A stretch of 64,000 bases of DNA from Gammaproteobacteria bacterium (GTDB taxonomy: Bacteria > Pseudomonadota > Gammaproteobacteria > JAJPIJ01): positions 62,001 to 126,000 of the forward strand of contig JAJVIQ010000004.1 in assembly GCA_022071965.1 (NCBI GenBank), in the 5' to 3' direction. Numbering within the stretch: the stretch's first letter is position 1; each line of letters begins with the position of its first letter. Shown piece after piece: positions 35,095-41,077 of the stretch. The position numbers and the translations under genes were made by a program. The notes under the pieces were generated by a model, which was not told the DNA's origin, did not search any database, and saw only the letters and a program-made list of their open reading frames with translations.

Positions 35095-36453
35095 GTGCCC
35101 GCGCGGGACGCGAGCGTGTCGCTGCATCGCCTGGTTCGCGAGGCGCTCGCCGGCCTGCCGCCGTCCCACGCCTCCGCGCTGGCCGTGGCCTACAGCGGCG
35201 GGCGCGACTCCACCGTGCTGCTGCACGTCCTGCGCGAGATCGCCCCGCCGCTCCCAGTACGCGCGATCCACGTCCATCACAACCTGCATCGCCAGGCGGA
35301 GCGCTGGGCGGATCTCTGCGCCCGGCAGTGCGCGGCGTGGAACATTCCACTGGAGCTGCTGCGCGTCGATGCACGCCCACCGCGCGGCGAGAGCCCCGAG
35401 GCGTGGGCGCGCCACGCCCGCTACGAGGCACTGCGCGCGGCGCTGAGGGAAGGCGAGGCGCTGCTCACCGCCCATCACCAGCGGGACCAGGCCGAGACAT
35501 TGTTACTGCAACTCGTGCGCGGGTCCGGCCCCGCGGGCCTGGCCGCGATGCCGCGACTGGCGAGGCTGGGCGCGCATCCCCACCTGCGGCCGCTCATCGA
35601 CGTTCCGGCGAGCCTGATCGCCGAGTACGCCGGCGAGCGGCGCCTCGCCTGGGCCGAGGATCCGAGCAACGCAGAGGTGCGCTATGACCGCAATTTCCTG
35701 CGGCACCGGGTGCTGGCGGTCGTGGAGGAACGGTGGCCGCGCGCGGCGACGACGGTGGCGCGCGCCGCGGCCTGGCAGGCGGAAGCGGCGGAACTGCTGT
35801 CCGCGCTCGCGCGATCCGACCTCGCGGCCGCCGCCGGGGCGACGCCGCACCGGTTGCGGCTGGATGCCCTGGCGGCCCTGCCGGTCTCCCGGCGCCACAA
35901 TCTGCTGCGTGGCTGGCTGAAGGGGCTGGGGCTGGCACCGCCGACGGCGGCGCAGTTGCGCGAGGTCGACCGCGCCCTGGCCGCACGCCACGATGGCGCC
36001 AGCTGCGTGTGCTGGCGCGGTGTGGAGTTGCGGCGCTTCCGCGACGAACTCATCGCGATGCACCCCCTGCCGATCTTCACTCCGGCCCGCCCCGTCTCGT
36101 GGCGGCCGGGCGGGGAGGCCCTGCGGCTTCCCGCCGGCAGCCTGGCCGCCAGCCGGTGTCTCGGCGAAGGGCTGGCGCAATCGGCGCTGGCGGGCCGGCG
36201 AATCTCGCTGCGCTACCGTGCCGGTGGCGAGACGCTGCGCCTGCGCGCCGGCGGGCCGGCACGTCCGCTGAAGCTGCTGCTGCAGGAGTGGCGGATCCCG
36301 CCATGGTTGCGCGATCGGCTGCCGCTGCTGTACGTCGAACATGCGCTGGCGGCGGTGGCCGACAGGGCGATCGCGGCGGAATTCCGGGCCGCGCCCGGCG
36401 CGGAGGGTTGGGTGTTGCAGTGGACGTGGGACGCGGCGCACGTGCCGCCATGA
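35095..36453 (+). CDS. tilS: tRNA(Ile)-lysidine synthase
   Basis: TilS converts the wobble cytidine of a minor isoleucine tRNA to lysidine, so that it reads AUA. The 452-residue protein has the PP-loop SGGRDS near residue 34, HVHHNL, then HHQRDQAETLLLQLVRGSG, and the C-terminal TilS substrate-binding domain. The GTG at 35095 is the start. The gene ends the core block and is convergent with the FHA gene, 7 bases away. Confidence 0.95.
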   Translation: MPARDASVSLHRLVREALAGLPPSHASALAVAYSGGRDSTVLLHVLREIAPPLPVRAIHVHHNLHRQAERWADLCARQCAAWNIPLELLRVDARPPRGESPEAWARHARYEALRAALREGEALLTAHHQRDQAETLLLQLVRGSGPAGLAAMPRLARLGAHPHLRPLIDVPASLIAEYAGERRLAWAEDPSNAEVRYDRNFLRHRVLAVVEERWPRAATTVARAAAWQAEAAELLSALARSDLAAAAGATPHRLRLDALAALPVSRRHNLLRGWLKGLGLAPPTAAQLREVDRALAARHDGASCVCWRGVELRRFRDELIAMHPLPIFTPARPVSWRPGGEALRLPAGSLAASRCLGEGLAQSALAGRRISLRYRAGGETLRLRAGGPARPLKLLLQEWRIPPWLRDRLPLLYVEHALAAVADRAIAAEFRAAPGAEGWVLQWTWDAAHVPP

Positions 36454-36460
36454 TGCGCGG

Positions 36461-37030
36461 TCATTCGCCGCGGGTGGTGAATCTGAAGGTCAGGTCGCCG
36501 ACGTCGATGAGGTCGCCGTCGGCGAGCGGTGCGTTCTTGACCTTGCGGTCATTGACGAACACGCCGTTCAGCGACTCCATGTCCGTGATCTCATAGACGC
36601 CGTCCTTGCGCAGGGTGATCTGCGCGTGCCGGCGGGAGATTGACGGGTGCTTCAGGACGACCTCGTTGCGCTCGGTGCCGCGCCCGATGCGGCAGGGCGT
36701 GTGCAGGATCTCGTGACGCATCCCCTCGCCGCCCTGTTGCAGCAGGTAGACGTGGCTCGCGGTGGTCGTCGCGCCGGGTATCGCCACGGCTGCCGCGGGT
36801 TTCAACGACGCGGAGCCGCGGTGGCGGCGCTGCAGCCGGCTGTAGATGATCAGCGCCGCCAGCACCCCCAGCAGGAAGGCGGCCGGGATGGCGTACCAGA
36901 CCCCCTCGCCGGACCCGGTGACCGGGGCCGCGCTCATGTCCCCGGCCCGTGCCACGGTCGCGAGCGTCACCGCGGCCAGTGCGGCGGCGGGCGCGAACTG
37001 CCGGATCAGGCTGTAATGCGTTGATATCAT
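36461..37030 (-). CDS. Membrane-anchored FHA-domain protein
   Basis: A 189-residue protein with a signal-like N-terminus, one membrane span (YAIPAAFLLGVLAALIIYSRL, roughly residues 45-65), and a C-terminal FHA domain. The FHA pattern is complete: CRIGRGTERNEVVL, then HPSISRRHAQI, then MESLNGVFVNDRKV. These are the Arg, Ser-x2-His and Asn that contact phosphothreonine in the family. The ATG at 37030 has GGAG nine bases upstream; a TTG at 37051 is also possible. It is the last gene of the ExbB-like cluster and may bind a phosphorylated partner there. No kinase gene is visible nearby. Confidence 0.8.
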   Translation of the reverse strand: MISTHYSLIRQFAPAAALAAVTLATVARAGDMSAAPVTGSGEGVWYAIPAAFLLGVLAALIIYSRLQRRHRGSASLKPAAAVAIPGATTTASHVYLLQQGGEGMRHEILHTPCRIGRGTERNEVVLKHPSISRRHAQITLRKDGVYEITDMESLNGVFVNDRKVKNAPLADGDLIDVGDLTFRFTTRGE

Positions 37031-37122
37031 CGCTGAAAACTCCGACGCCAAGCATAACAGAGACGTCGCGCCGCGCGACGGCGTATGCCGCGCGGCCGGA
37101 CACGCAGTCCTTCCAGCACCCG

Positions 37123-37614
37123 CTACTTCTCCGGGAACAGCGGGTCAGGCATGTCGAAAAACTGCAGATCGACCTCGAGCCTGCCCGTTACCGCGTTGCG
37201 CACGAGTTCCATCTCCCCGAGCTGCGGCAGGTTCTTGCGCAGCTTCTTGCTCGCCTCGTTGAGCTTGTTGTGCAGCGCCGGGGTGTAGGGGATCTTGTAC
37301 GCGCGGGGGATGTTCTTGCCTATCTGCTGCTCCATGTCGGTCAGCCAGAGATATATGGTGCCCTTGGCCTGCGTGTTCTTGTTGGGCTCGTCGACGTGAA
37401 TGCCGATCAGGTTGAAGCGCTTCGGCAGCTTGATGCCGGTCGGCCAGCCGATGAGCGGCGAGTAGGAGACGACGGTTGAATACATGAGCAGCCCGACGCC
37501 CACGATCGCCAGCCCCTTGATTGTCCAGCTCCAGCGCGTGCGCGTCAGCAGCACGAACAGCAGCAGTGCGAGCATGAGGTAGGCGAAGATTATGCCGATC
37601 ATTCCCCAGTTCAT
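37123..37614 (-). CDS. Uncharacterised membrane-anchored protein, paralogue 2
   Basis: I do not recognise this 163-residue protein. It has three N-terminal hydrophobic stretches within the first 60 residues, then a soluble part. Its core GWPTGIKLPKRFNLIGIHV, followed by EPN, AKGTIYLWLTD and IPRAYKIPYTP, matches the upstream neighbour block for block (GWPSGEDLPKRFGLIAVYV; AKGSVFFWVTD; VPRAYLLDYDP). The two genes are therefore tandem paralogues that have diverged in their tails. The position between the ExbB/ExbD-like pair and the FHA gene suggests a part of the same envelope complex. Confidence 0.7.
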   Translation of the reverse strand: MNWGMIGIIFAYLMLALLLFVLLTRTRWSWTIKGLAIVGVGLLMYSTVVSYSPLIGWPTGIKLPKRFNLIGIHVDEPNKNTQAKGTIYLWLTDMEQQIGKNIPRAYKIPYTPALHNKLNEASKKLRKNLPQLGEMELVRNAVTGRLEVDLQFFDMPDPLFPEK

Positions 37615-37682
37615 GGCGTAGTGTCTTCCCGTCGGGTGGTTGCGGGCAGGCGGCAGGCCGTCTCGCCGGTTTCCGGCCGGCC

Positions 37683-38258
37683 CTAGGGGGGCGGCGGCGC
37701 GGCGCCGTCGTCCGTGGGCGCCGGCATCTCGGCGGTCTTCGATGGCGGCGCCTCGGGCGCGGCGTCGAAGAACTTCACCGTGTACTTGTGCGATTTCGCG
37801 CCCTGGCGCTCCTCGCCCGGCTTGCCCATCTTGGCGAGATCCAGCTCGTCGCCCGAGACCGCCTCGCCGACCTGCGGCACGTTCTTCTGCAGCTTGGCGC
37901 GCGCCTCCCTGGCTCGCGCGTGCAGCTCGGGATCGTAATCGAGCAGGTAGGCCCGCGGCACGTTGGTGCTGCTGGACTTGTCCGTCACCCAGAAGAACAC
38001 GCTGCCCTTGGCACCGGTTATCCTGTCGGGCTCCTGCACATAGACCGCGATGAGGCCGAAGCGCTTCGGCAGGTCCTCGCCGGAGGGCCATCCGAGCAGC
38101 GGCGGAAAGGAGAAGTAGAGCACGAGGTAGGCCGCGGACGTGGCGATGAGGAGCAGGGCCTTCGCCAGCCAGGACAGCGTGGAGAATATGTTCAGCCCTG
38201 CGAGCAGCGCCGCCAGCACGACGTAGGCGGCTATCAGTTGCGCAATACCCAGAGTCAT
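37683..38258 (-). CDS. Uncharacterised membrane-anchored protein, paralogue 1
   Basis: An unrecognised 191-residue protein built like the next gene: about 60 residues with two to three hydrophobic spans, then a soluble domain with GWPSGEDLPKRFGLIAVYV, EPDRITGAKGSVFFWVTD and NVPRAYLLDYDP. Its C-terminus is longer, basic and then proline-rich, ending in a run of prolines. It starts 7 bases after the ExbD-like gene stops, so it is almost certainly in the same transcript. The function is unknown; I infer a structural or anchoring role. Confidence 0.72.
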   Translation of the reverse strand: MTLGIAQLIAAYVVLAALLAGLNIFSTLSWLAKALLLIATSAAYLVLYFSFPPLLGWPSGEDLPKRFGLIAVYVQEPDRITGAKGSVFFWVTDKSSSTNVPRAYLLDYDPELHARAREARAKLQKNVPQVGEAVSGDELDLAKMGKPGEERQGAKSHKYTVKFFDAAPEAPPSKTAEMPAPTDDGAAPPPP

Positions 38259-38265
38259 GCCGGCC

Positions 38266-38889
38266 TCAGCTCCTGTGGAAGATGCGGGCGGTGAGCGACT
38301 TCTCGATGCGGTTGATGTTCGAAAGCCTTCCGTCCTGATCGATGGTGAAGCGCACGGCGGTCTTCTCGTCGCCGGGCTTCTGGAGCTTGATGGTGCCGTA
38401 GTAGATCACCTCGAGCTGCGGGTTCACCTTGTCGACGCGGACGTTGACGTCCACGGGCTTGTTGTCCTCGGAACCGTAGTAAAAGATGTTGACGACGTAT
38501 TCCCCCACGACGGTTCCGCGTATGGTCACCACCTCCTGGTTCAGCGGATTCTGCACCGTCTGGCCGTTGATGGTCAGCGTGTCGTTGACGTTGCCGCGAT
38601 CGTCGCGATCCAGGTGGATCAGCCCGGCCTCCTTGTTCTGGAACCATACAAGGTTGCCGTCGGGCTCCTCCACCCAGGTGTCGATGTCGTTCGGATTGTT
38701 GTCCGGCCACTGCACCGTGATGATGTACTCGGCCTTCGGGTCGATGATGCCCTTCTTCGCCACCGGATTCATGAAGATGACCGAGAGGATGAAGAAGAAG
38801 GTCAGCGCCTGGATGATCTTGAACAGTACCGCCGTGATCGGGTCGAACGGCTGCTGAAACTTCGACTTGGAGCTGAGGCGGAGCGGCAT
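38266..38889 (-). CDS. ExbD/MotB-like single-span protein with beta-rich periplasmic domain
   Basis: This 207-residue protein has a short cytoplasmic N-terminus, one membrane span (about residues 19-40) and a periplasmic domain. At the membrane edge DPITAVL (Asp16) lines up with the proton-binding Asp of MotB (D-F-M-T-A pattern); no acidic residue lies deeper in the span, where ExbD and TolR have theirs. The periplasmic start, WPDNNPNDIDTWVEEPDGNL, resembles the DUF2135/YfaP type of beta domain rather than an ExbD or OmpA-like fold. The gene sits 20 bases after the ExbB-like gene, as stator pairs do. The role as stator partner is inferred from order and topology. Confidence 0.65.
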   Translation of the reverse strand: MPLRLSSKSKFQQPFDPITAVLFKIIQALTFFFILSVIFMNPVAKKGIIDPKAEYIITVQWPDNNPNDIDTWVEEPDGNLVWFQNKEAGLIHLDRDDRGNVNDTLTINGQTVQNPLNQEVVTIRGTVVGEYVVNIFYYGSEDNKPVDVNVRVDKVNPQLEVIYYGTIKLQKPGDEKTAVRFTIDQDGRLSNINRIEKSLTARIFHRS

Positions 38890-38909
38890 ATCGCAGGGCG
38901 ACGCAGGGT

Positions 38910-39656
38910 TTACGTGTCTGCTTTCAGCCGTGGCCAGAGGCGCACTTCAGTCAGGTCGATGGTATTTTCGAGGAGTTCGTCGAGCCCGCGGCCGAGGAGG
39001 TAGTACGGTATCGACAGCAGTATGCCGCACACCAGGCTGACCAGTGTCGTGTTCAGCGCCGTGCTCATGCCGTGGCTCATCTGCTTCAGCACCCGCTGCA
39101 TCATGCTGGCGTCGAGCAGTTCCTGCTGCGACACCGAGCCCAGCATCCAGATGAAGCCGATCAGGGTGCCCAGGAATCCGACCTTCAGATTGAAATCGAT
39201 CAGGAACCAGCCGAACTCGTTGGCACTGCGGATCTTCGAGGCATAGGCCTCGAGGATGTCGTTGCGCGACTCGGCAGGCTTGCCGGCCTCCGCGCGCCGT
39301 TGCTTGGTGCGCACCAGATCGAGCAGGTAACGAGATATGAAACCGTCGGGCAGGGCGCCGCCGCCGACCTGCACGCGTCCGTGCGAGACGCTGACCGGAG
39401 TCTCGGCACTCTGGCTGTCCAGCACCTGGCGCGAACGCGCGACCAGATTGAGCTCGCCCGACAGGACCCAGGTGCGCCACATGGAATGGATCACGCCGAC
39501 CGCGTAGATGGCGATGACCGCCACGCAGATGCGGCTGTGGTCGCTCTCGACCATCTCCTGTATCAGGCCGTTGTCCCAGCAGACGACCAGACCGAAGGCG
39601 ATGAGGCCGGTCGTCAGCAGCCACACGAGAAACAGGAAATGTTCGGTCTTGTACAT
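38910..39656 (-). CDS. MotA/TolQ/ExbB-family proton channel-like protein
   Basis: A 248-residue membrane protein with two N-terminal spans (about 5-27 and 42-64), a cytoplasmic loop, and two C-terminal spans. The last two carry the family motifs GFLGTLIG (160-167) and ALNTTLVSLVCGI (200-212), including the pore-facing threonines known from ExbB and TolQ. The family forms pentameric ion channels that drive a partner across the envelope. This one is not next to tonB, tolA or flagellar genes. The partner gene downstream and the paralogue pair suggest a distinct system. Confidence 0.8.
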   Translation of the reverse strand: MYKTEHFLFLVWLLTTGLIAFGLVVCWDNGLIQEMVESDHSRICVAVIAIYAVGVIHSMWRTWVLSGELNLVARSRQVLDSQSAETPVSVSHGRVQVGGGALPDGFISRYLLDLVRTKQRRAEAGKPAESRNDILEAYASKIRSANEFGWFLIDFNLKVGFLGTLIGFIWMLGSVSQQELLDASMMQRVLKQMSHGMSTALNTTLVSLVCGILLSIPYYLLGRGLDELLENTIDLTEVRLWPRLKADT

Positions 39657-39738
39657 GGTGCGTCCGGCTCTTCGGGATTGTTCGACGTCGCCAGCGCATC
39701 GGGGCTGGACTTGCGGGTCGCGATGGGGTCGGCTGGGG

Positions 39739-39769
39739 AGTATACACGCACAATGACGGTACGCCGCAA
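39739..39769 (-). promoter_or_regulatory. Promoter candidate for the ExbB-like operon
   Basis: On the minus strand TTGCGG (39764-39769) and TATACT (39739-39744) are 19 bases apart, in the 161-base gap between the DUF302 gene and the ExbB-like gene. The -10 is strong; the spacing is long. It would give the five-gene cluster its own start point. Confidence 0.4.
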
Positions 39770-39817
39770 GTCGGGCTCCGGCGCCCTCCACGGTCCGGGC
39801 CGCCCCGCGACGGCCCG

Positions 39818-40324
39818 CTAGGGCGTGGACGGGACGACCGACACCCGGCTCACGGGGGCGTCCTTCTCCAGCGCGAAGGCGGCGATCTCCCGCAGTGTCG
39901 AGTTCATGCGTCGCGCGAAGGCGACCACCCGTGCATCCGGATGATGTTCGGGCAGAAGGATGACACTGATGACGGTCTGCCCGCCAGCCACGTGGACGGT
40001 GATGCGGCAGGGCATCATGGCGATGTAGCCGGGGTCGTACTCGAGCACTTCGCGCGCCACCTCGAGACTGCAGAAGTGGATGACCTCCATATCCGGAAAG
40101 TTCCGGTAGCCGCGCTCACGCATCGCGGAGCCGACCTTGTTGTAGCCGGTGATGCGGAAGTTGCGCTCGGTGATCGCGAACTCCAGCTCCTCGATCACGT
40201 CGGCGAAGGGCTTGTCGGTGACATAGCGGGCCACCGGGCCGGTGCCTTCCCCGACGCCCGCCGGCGGAGCCTTGGAGCAGGCCGTCCCCAGCAGGAGCGG
40301 CAGCACGAGCAGCGCGAGGCGCAT
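39818..40324 (-). CDS. DUF302-family lipoprotein
   Basis: A 168-residue lipoprotein with lipobox LLGTAC, so Cys16 is the predicted lipidated residue. The remainder resembles the DUF302 fold: PFADVIEELEFAITERNFRITG, then EVIHFCSLEVAREVLEYDP and MPCRITVHV. DUF302 proteins are of unknown function. The gene starts 15 bases after the L,D-transpeptidase stops, so the two are likely co-transcribed in the envelope. Confidence 0.75.
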   Translation of the reverse strand: MRLALLVLPLLLGTACSKAPPAGVGEGTGPVARYVTDKPFADVIEELEFAITERNFRITGYNKVGSAMRERGYRNFPDMEVIHFCSLEVAREVLEYDPGYIAMMPCRITVHVAGGQTVISVILLPEHHPDARVVAFARRMNSTLREIAAFALEKDAPVSRVSVVPSTP

Positions 40325-40339
40325 GGCCGCCGGTGCGTA

Positions 40340-40933
40340 TTACTCGCTGATGACGACCTTGGTGCCCACGTCCACGTACCGCATGATCTCCTCGATCTGT
40401 TCGTTGGTGAGCGCGATGCAGCCCTCCGTCCAGTCGTTGCCGAGGTGCAGGTAGACCCGATCGCCGCTCTCATCGCCCAGGCCGTGGATGCCGATGGCCC
40501 CGCCCAGGGGGGTGTCCTGCGGCGGGATCCGGCCGCTGTGGGCCGCCGCCACGATCGCGTCGAACTCCGCGCGCGTGATGATCTTGTTCTTCAGGCCGTA
40601 AAAGGCGTCCTTGACGTTGGGATAGCTCAGCCGCAGGAAGCGGTGGAACTTCTCGCTGTCCTTCAACTCCACAATCCGGTAGATTCCCACCGGGGTCTTG
40701 CGGTCGCCCATCATTTTCTTGTCGCCCTTGCCGCCCTTGCCGGAGGCGACGCGATACTGCTTCTCGACCTTGCCGTCGTGCTTGATGAGCAGCAGGCGCT
40801 GTGACTTGATGACCTGGATCTCGTAATCATCGCGCGGGGCGGCGGCGGCGGCCTCGATCGCAGCGGGCGACAGGACCTCCAGCGCGATGGCCAGCAGCGC
40901 GGCGGTGAGGTGTGTGAAGGTCCTGCGCGGCAT
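40340..40933 (-). CDS. L,D-transpeptidase (YkuD domain), YafK-like
   Basis: A 197-residue secreted protein with a signal peptide (LTAALLAIALEVLSPAAIEA) and a YkuD domain. The catalytic motif is GIHG followed by TEGCIALTN, with the active cysteine. The usual Arg after GCI is replaced by Ala, the pattern seen in YafK-type enzymes. Such enzymes crosslink peptidoglycan, attach proteins to it, or detach them. ATG 40933 gives a clean signal peptide; the in-frame sequence further upstream is not coding-like and overlaps the divergent cytochrome gene. Confidence 0.88.
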   Translation of the reverse strand: MPRRTFTHLTAALLAIALEVLSPAAIEAAAAAPRDDYEIQVIKSQRLLLIKHDGKVEKQYRVASGKGGKGDKKMMGDRKTPVGIYRIVELKDSEKFHRFLRLSYPNVKDAFYGLKNKIITRAEFDAIVAAAHSGRIPPQDTPLGGAIGIHGLGDESGDRVYLHLGNDWTEGCIALTNEQIEEIMRYVDVGTKVVISE

Positions 40934-41077
40934 GCAATTCTGATGATTTGAATTCTTAAAATGCAGCGTTAACTGTGTGCCTGACAGCATATTATCGCAA
41001 AAAGAGAACACGACGAAACCTTCTCGTGCACCGGCCCAGACTCGCGATCCCTTCCCCAGGCAAGCGGAGAACCAGAG

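Follow-up and report, generated by a model that had tools for sequence, protein, structure and literature searches.

A conserved channel, partner and M gene unit of the PF01618 motor family, apparently undescribed and common to bacteria and phages

The PF01618-type channel family powers the Ton, Tol, Mot, gliding and Zorya systems, and, to our knowledge, the PF01618 motor systems known so far (Ton, Tol, flagellar, gliding, Zorya) are all bacterial. A five-gene cluster in the window (the whole 64-kb stretch of DNA that was analysed) raises the question of whether this series has a further ion-driven member. A preliminary description had read the cluster as just such a separate system. Its five genes lie, as claimed, on one strand (-) at 36461-39656, downstream of two other genes:

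Channel gene, 38910..39656 (-): 248 aa, MotA/TolQ/ExbB family (PF01618, E=7e-8)
Partner gene, 38266..38889 (-): 207 aa, TM helix 17-40 and outer beta-sandwich (AF2, residue tables)
M3, 37683..38258 (-): first tandem paralogue, two membrane helices and a C-terminal domain (family profile, hydropathy)
M4, 37123..37614 (-): second paralogue, predicted OB-like C-terminal domain (AF2 pLDDT 92)
FHA protein, 36461..37030 (-): membrane span and cytoplasmic FHA domain (PF00498, E=1e-19)
DUF302 protein, 39818..40324 (-): upstream of the channel gene (PF03625, E=7e-11)
YkuD L,D-transpeptidase-like protein, 40340..40933 (-): upstream (PF03734, E=7e-23)

The GTLIG and ALNTT motifs attributed to the channel are both seen in the sequence, the claimed tight spacing of 20 and 7 bases holds exactly (ORF coordinates put the two later gaps at 68 and 92 bases), and the proposed identities of the ExbB/TolQ/MotA-like channel, the M3/M4 tandem paralogues (phmmer 3e-32) and the membrane FHA protein are borne out. 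The promoter assigned to the cluster is not: 36200-41000 holds no sigma-70-like promoter, with 0.6 expected by chance, and the DUF302 gene possibly shares a transcription unit with the cluster. A terminator-like hairpin lies between M4 and FHA (37080-37064, -), but chance alone would give 2.3 of these in the region. The channel gene is the one PF01618 match in the window, the nearest other on the contig being a TtpC/ExbB-like pair about 39 kb off, outside the window, and Pfam and NCBIfam profiles find no TolA, TolB, Pal or TonB among the five genes.

At 32.7 bits against PF01618, the window channel scores above the curated cut-off of 22.9, and PF01618 is matched by all 43 family channels, phage ones included (E<=0.1). 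Four hydropathy peaks indicate four membrane spans in a MotA-like layout, with a cytoplasmic loop that is shorter in phage copies. G160, G163, A200 and T204 are invariant in the family and T164 and T203 nearly so; the conserved Gly/Thr positions fall in the last two, pore-lining helices, and the family profile matches the MotA, TolQ and ExbB structures. Among 369 genomes of the class, 41 channel matches reach at least 116 bits, followed by a gap down to the next subfamily at 79.5 bits or less. All 41 adjoin a partner gene; a coordinate check of 37 of them places the partner within 0.8 kb in 36 and at 2.7 kb in one. The clear separation in score supports a subfamily of its own for this channel.

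The partner and M proteins matched no curated family in Pfam or NCBIfam and no PDB fold at E<=0.001; a fold search against viral structures gave eight weak partial matches, among them to long phage proteins, which were left unused. In its AF2 monomer model (pLDDT 89), the partner has a membrane helix at 17-40 followed by an all-beta domain, and its relatives show weak DUF2135/PPC similarity. It has no Pfam match to PF02472 (ExbD/TolR), and hhalign gives a probability of 1% against 12 ExbD/TolR; searches for an OmpA-like peptidoglycan-binding domain (Pfam) and a vWA domain (VWA profiles) likewise found no match in this all-beta protein. The M4 model (pLDDT 92) comprises two helices and a beta domain, the C-terminal domain of M matching OB folds repeatedly but weakly (E 0.03 or above throughout), and the M family profile finds matches in both genomes and phages. 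From the distribution of positive residues, the M loop is predicted to be cytoplasmic and the FHA domain to lie inside.

All five genes of the proposed cluster exist, but the conserved core consists of three, channel, partner and M in fixed order, with FHA optional. Accordingly, channel homologues do occur apart from the FHA gene, since it is optional, but are not scattered without partner and M. A scan of genome contigs found at least 358 relatives, among whose titles Alpha-, Beta- and Gammaproteobacteria appear, and the order channel-partner-M is seen in 78 of the best 80 of these. Because the 80 retained loci are ordered by their resemblance to the window, counts over them are not frequencies. 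Whole genomes were scanned with a bacterial partner alignment, since the first, broader alignment was too diverse: the partner occurs in 40 of the 369 class genomes and M in 37, every one among the 40 (Fisher 9e-48, computed ignoring species relatedness), while neither M nor the channel subfamily appears without the partner in any of the 369. The three genes are genetically inseparable. A draw across the phylum found the unit in 17/398 genomes, ten of them in one large-genome family. Many genomes keep stable synteny of the unit with tilS/accA. The cultured laboratory strain Azospirillum brasilense Sp7, which would be a practical host for experiments, carries a divergent copy on plasmid p1 (L225), and two contigs labelled Klebsiella pneumoniae (L150, L151) hold window-like units, one with the tilS/accA synteny; these are probably mislabelled environmental bins.

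Counted over the best 80 of at least 358 loci, the FHA protein follows the unit in 27 and a lipoprotein of one family in 29 others, the two never occurring together at one locus. Full-length FHA relatives combine a vWA domain, a membrane span and FHA (L164 is an example); by ORF length, the window protein does not have the periplasmic vWA part. Before the unit, a YkuD gene stands in 41 and a DUF302 gene in 33 of the same 80 loci. These neighbours come mostly from one syntenic lineage, so the link to the envelope that they offer is weak. A MreBCD/RodA neighbourhood, confined to one alphaproteobacterial lineage, was not used as evidence. In a large-genome, alphaproteobacterial-looking family (L276-L279), metallophosphatase-like and Ser/Thr-kinase-like genes follow the unit in 2 of 4 loci.

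The unit is phage-borne as well as chromosomal, as its presence in cultured Rhizobium phages and in at least 306 viral contigs shows. By tblastn, the partner is present in 27 phage records, all from Rhizobium or Sinorhizobium phages; in four of these the flanking genes match the channel and M profiles, and in phage 16-3 and two relatives both matches are weaker but present. The three genes encode about 150, 200 and 150 residues in Rhizobium phages. IMG/VR yields at least 306 relatives with one pattern set and 292 with another, and the gene order is kept in 79 of the best 80 viral contigs, the other being cut by the contig end. Genes for phage heads, tails, polymerases and sigma factors are among the viral neighbours, and no fixed functional partner beside the unit emerged when neighbours were tallied in 49 viral contigs. 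On the unrooted partner tree, phages span several deep lineages, with the main chromosomal clade as one group among them, and phage and chromosome states require 2 changes, where shuffling gives a mean of 24 to 27. Conservation across hundreds of genomes and viral contigs places the cluster beyond chance; it is a real, conserved variant of the PF01618 motor family, common to bacteria and phages and apparently undescribed.

Several candidate companions of the phage unit were rejected. The p044-like 420-aa genes beside 16-3-type units are not vWA proteins, and an RHph_I1_18 gene labelled vWA proved to be DUF7788/DUF2828 and was dropped. A link to lysis cassettes is not claimed because the 49-contig tallies hold only single endolysin or rII matches. 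A prophage-like locus (L283:5714-10230) has an endolysin-like gene and a trypsin-like lipoprotein ahead of channel, partner and M. A trypsin-like secreted protease gene recurs close to the phage unit (L222, L223, 16-3 p036, RHph_X2_25), and a cluster read as trypsin-like is present in eight viral contigs. ClpS genes lie just downstream of M in L062, L079, L097, L117 and L120, some of these contigs having a ClpA-like gene further on.

Among described systems, the TolQ-like + TPH-vWA motor, predicted in silico in 2025 (PMC12204202, Fig. 4c,d), comes closest. In both, a TolQ-like channel adjoins a partner that is not ExbD and whose N-terminal helix bears an Asp; the partner domain, however, is vWA there and an all-beta sandwich here, and the present unit adds the two-span M, a separate channel subfamily and phage copies. 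The next-best channel subfamily (L364-L366) has vWA partners with an N-terminal helix, a layout that matches the second vWA family of the same study. ExbBD, TolQR and MotAB share with the unit a PF01618 channel with conserved Gly/Thr positions and, in most copies, an Asp where the partner helix begins; unlike theirs, the partner is unrelated by profile to PF02472 and has no OmpA-like domain, and the unit includes M and no TonB, TolA or Pal. Zorya (ZorAB) likewise has a channel of PF01618 type and, as a separate protein, a single-span partner, whereas the present unit has fixed chromosomal synteny and phage copies; PADLOC ZorA models match the channel weakly (7e-5), far below its PF01618 match, and the Zorya models (ZorB, ZorC/ZorD, ZorE) gave no PADLOC match in the other four proteins. 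By its channel the unit would belong to the broad GIT class of non-flagellar ion transporters, for which A subunits that carry DUFs and compact B subunits that bind PG are described (PMC12505986); its partner and M differ from these. The open-access literature (bioRxiv outside this scope) yielded no published description of the unit. Fixed three-gene order, complete co-occurrence and a channel subfamily of its own thus support a channel-based system that is separate from Ton, Tol, Mot and Zorya and apparently undescribed.

One residue of the partner bears on whether this system is ion-driven. In 5:2 ion-driven motors the TM helix of the partner is expected to carry an acidic residue at its start. 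Partner position 20 corresponds to the Asp in the PFID of ExbD and to the Asp of the source genome's own TolR-like VVPYID motif, and each of the 31 letters at this TM position from outside the window clade is Asp (alignment A3). Two states alone occur in 207 paired loci: Asp20, usually with Asn24, in 180, and Lys24, accompanied by Ala20, Val20 or a gap, in 27. The window partner has Ala20 and Lys24, that is, Asp replaced by Ala and, four residues on, Asn by Lys; the acidic residue at the TM start is absent from this copy and from the other LFK clade. The stator-like partner of the preliminary description is therefore single-span, as proposed, but bears no acidic residue at the stator position. 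Lys24 is found in the window clade and in one large-genome alphaproteobacterial family (its class inferred from kinship and genome size), and these copies form two tree groups, although the AU test does not reject a single origin (p=0.079). With the usual Asp lost, an ion-driven reading is weaker for the window copy than for the family: the claim of a separate channel-based system stands, and that of ion drive is weakened here. Asp16 is retained in the window partner.

Channel, partner and M are likely to form a complex. We favour, with a probability of about 55%, a stator-like inner-membrane complex that in most of the family is driven by ions through the Asp of the partner and the threonines of the channel; ion drive is probable for most copies and less sure for the window copy. 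The channel subunits, probably five, would form a ring that encloses the membrane helices of a dimeric partner, and ions passing the Asp and threonines in most of the family would turn or strain the periplasmic beta-sandwich of the partner. The two-span M may relay or cap this movement, and an optional fourth protein, vWA-TM-FHA or in other lineages a lipoprotein, may pass it on, either into the cytoplasm or, probably, towards the outer membrane. The role would be in the cell envelope, perhaps in wall upkeep or envelope sensing. Because its usual Asp is gone, the window copy would have to use the conserved Asp16, work by an altered coupling or be a non-driven regulatory version. Phages, which carry the bare three-gene unit, would probably use it to modify the host envelope during infection.

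The replacement of Asp in two clades, the window's included, with its matched Asn-to-Lys change, would also suit an envelope sensor or scaffold without ion drive, in which the ring holds the partner while vWA/FHA or two-component neighbours read the envelope state. The vWA-TM-FHA fourth protein and the response regulators and kinases near several loci point in this direction, yet Asp and the channel threonines are kept in most copies, phage ones included, as expected if ions pass, and we consider a sensor or scaffold rather unlikely. It is improbable that the chromosomal units serve a Zorya-related anti-phage defence and the phage copies act as counter-defence decoys: such a role would fit the weak ZorA match and the carriage of homologues by phages, but that match is much weaker than the one to PF01618, the five proteins have no other PADLOC defence match of note, and the unit sits in stable tilS/accA synteny in many genomes, not in variable islands.

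The unrooted partner tree, with its main chromosomal clade among deeper phage lineages, and the copy in a prophage-like region (L283) would allow the chromosomal units to be domesticated phage-gene remnants with no motor role of their own. The tree, however, fixes neither root nor direction of transfer, and three intact genes long conserved across proteobacterial lineages argue for function, which makes remnants quite improbable. Most improbable is descent from a duplicated Tol or Ton motor that then diverged: the channel does belong to PF01618, but the partner is not PF02472, and TolQ, ExbB and MotA channels, together with three PF02472 partners, are encoded elsewhere in the source genome, which rules out a simple duplicate.

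Returning to the stator-like complex, we tentatively extend it, with somewhat less than even confidence, to the proposal that phages across deep lineages encode a complete ion-driven envelope motor, that Proteobacteria carry the same motor on the chromosome with a vWA-FHA or lipoprotein output, and that two clades, the window's among them, swapped the drive residue for a Lys one turn further along the helix and so acquired a charge-swapped form. If so, phages bring their own energised envelope machine. A compact three-gene unit in bacteria and phages offers a small system for structural work on motor-load coupling, and the paired Asp loss and Lys gain is a natural test of the role of the acidic residue. 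Tandem copies of M occur only within the Ala20/Lys24 clade to which the window belongs (L142-L153); since L153 combines Ala20 with a single M, the residue change probably preceded the duplication.
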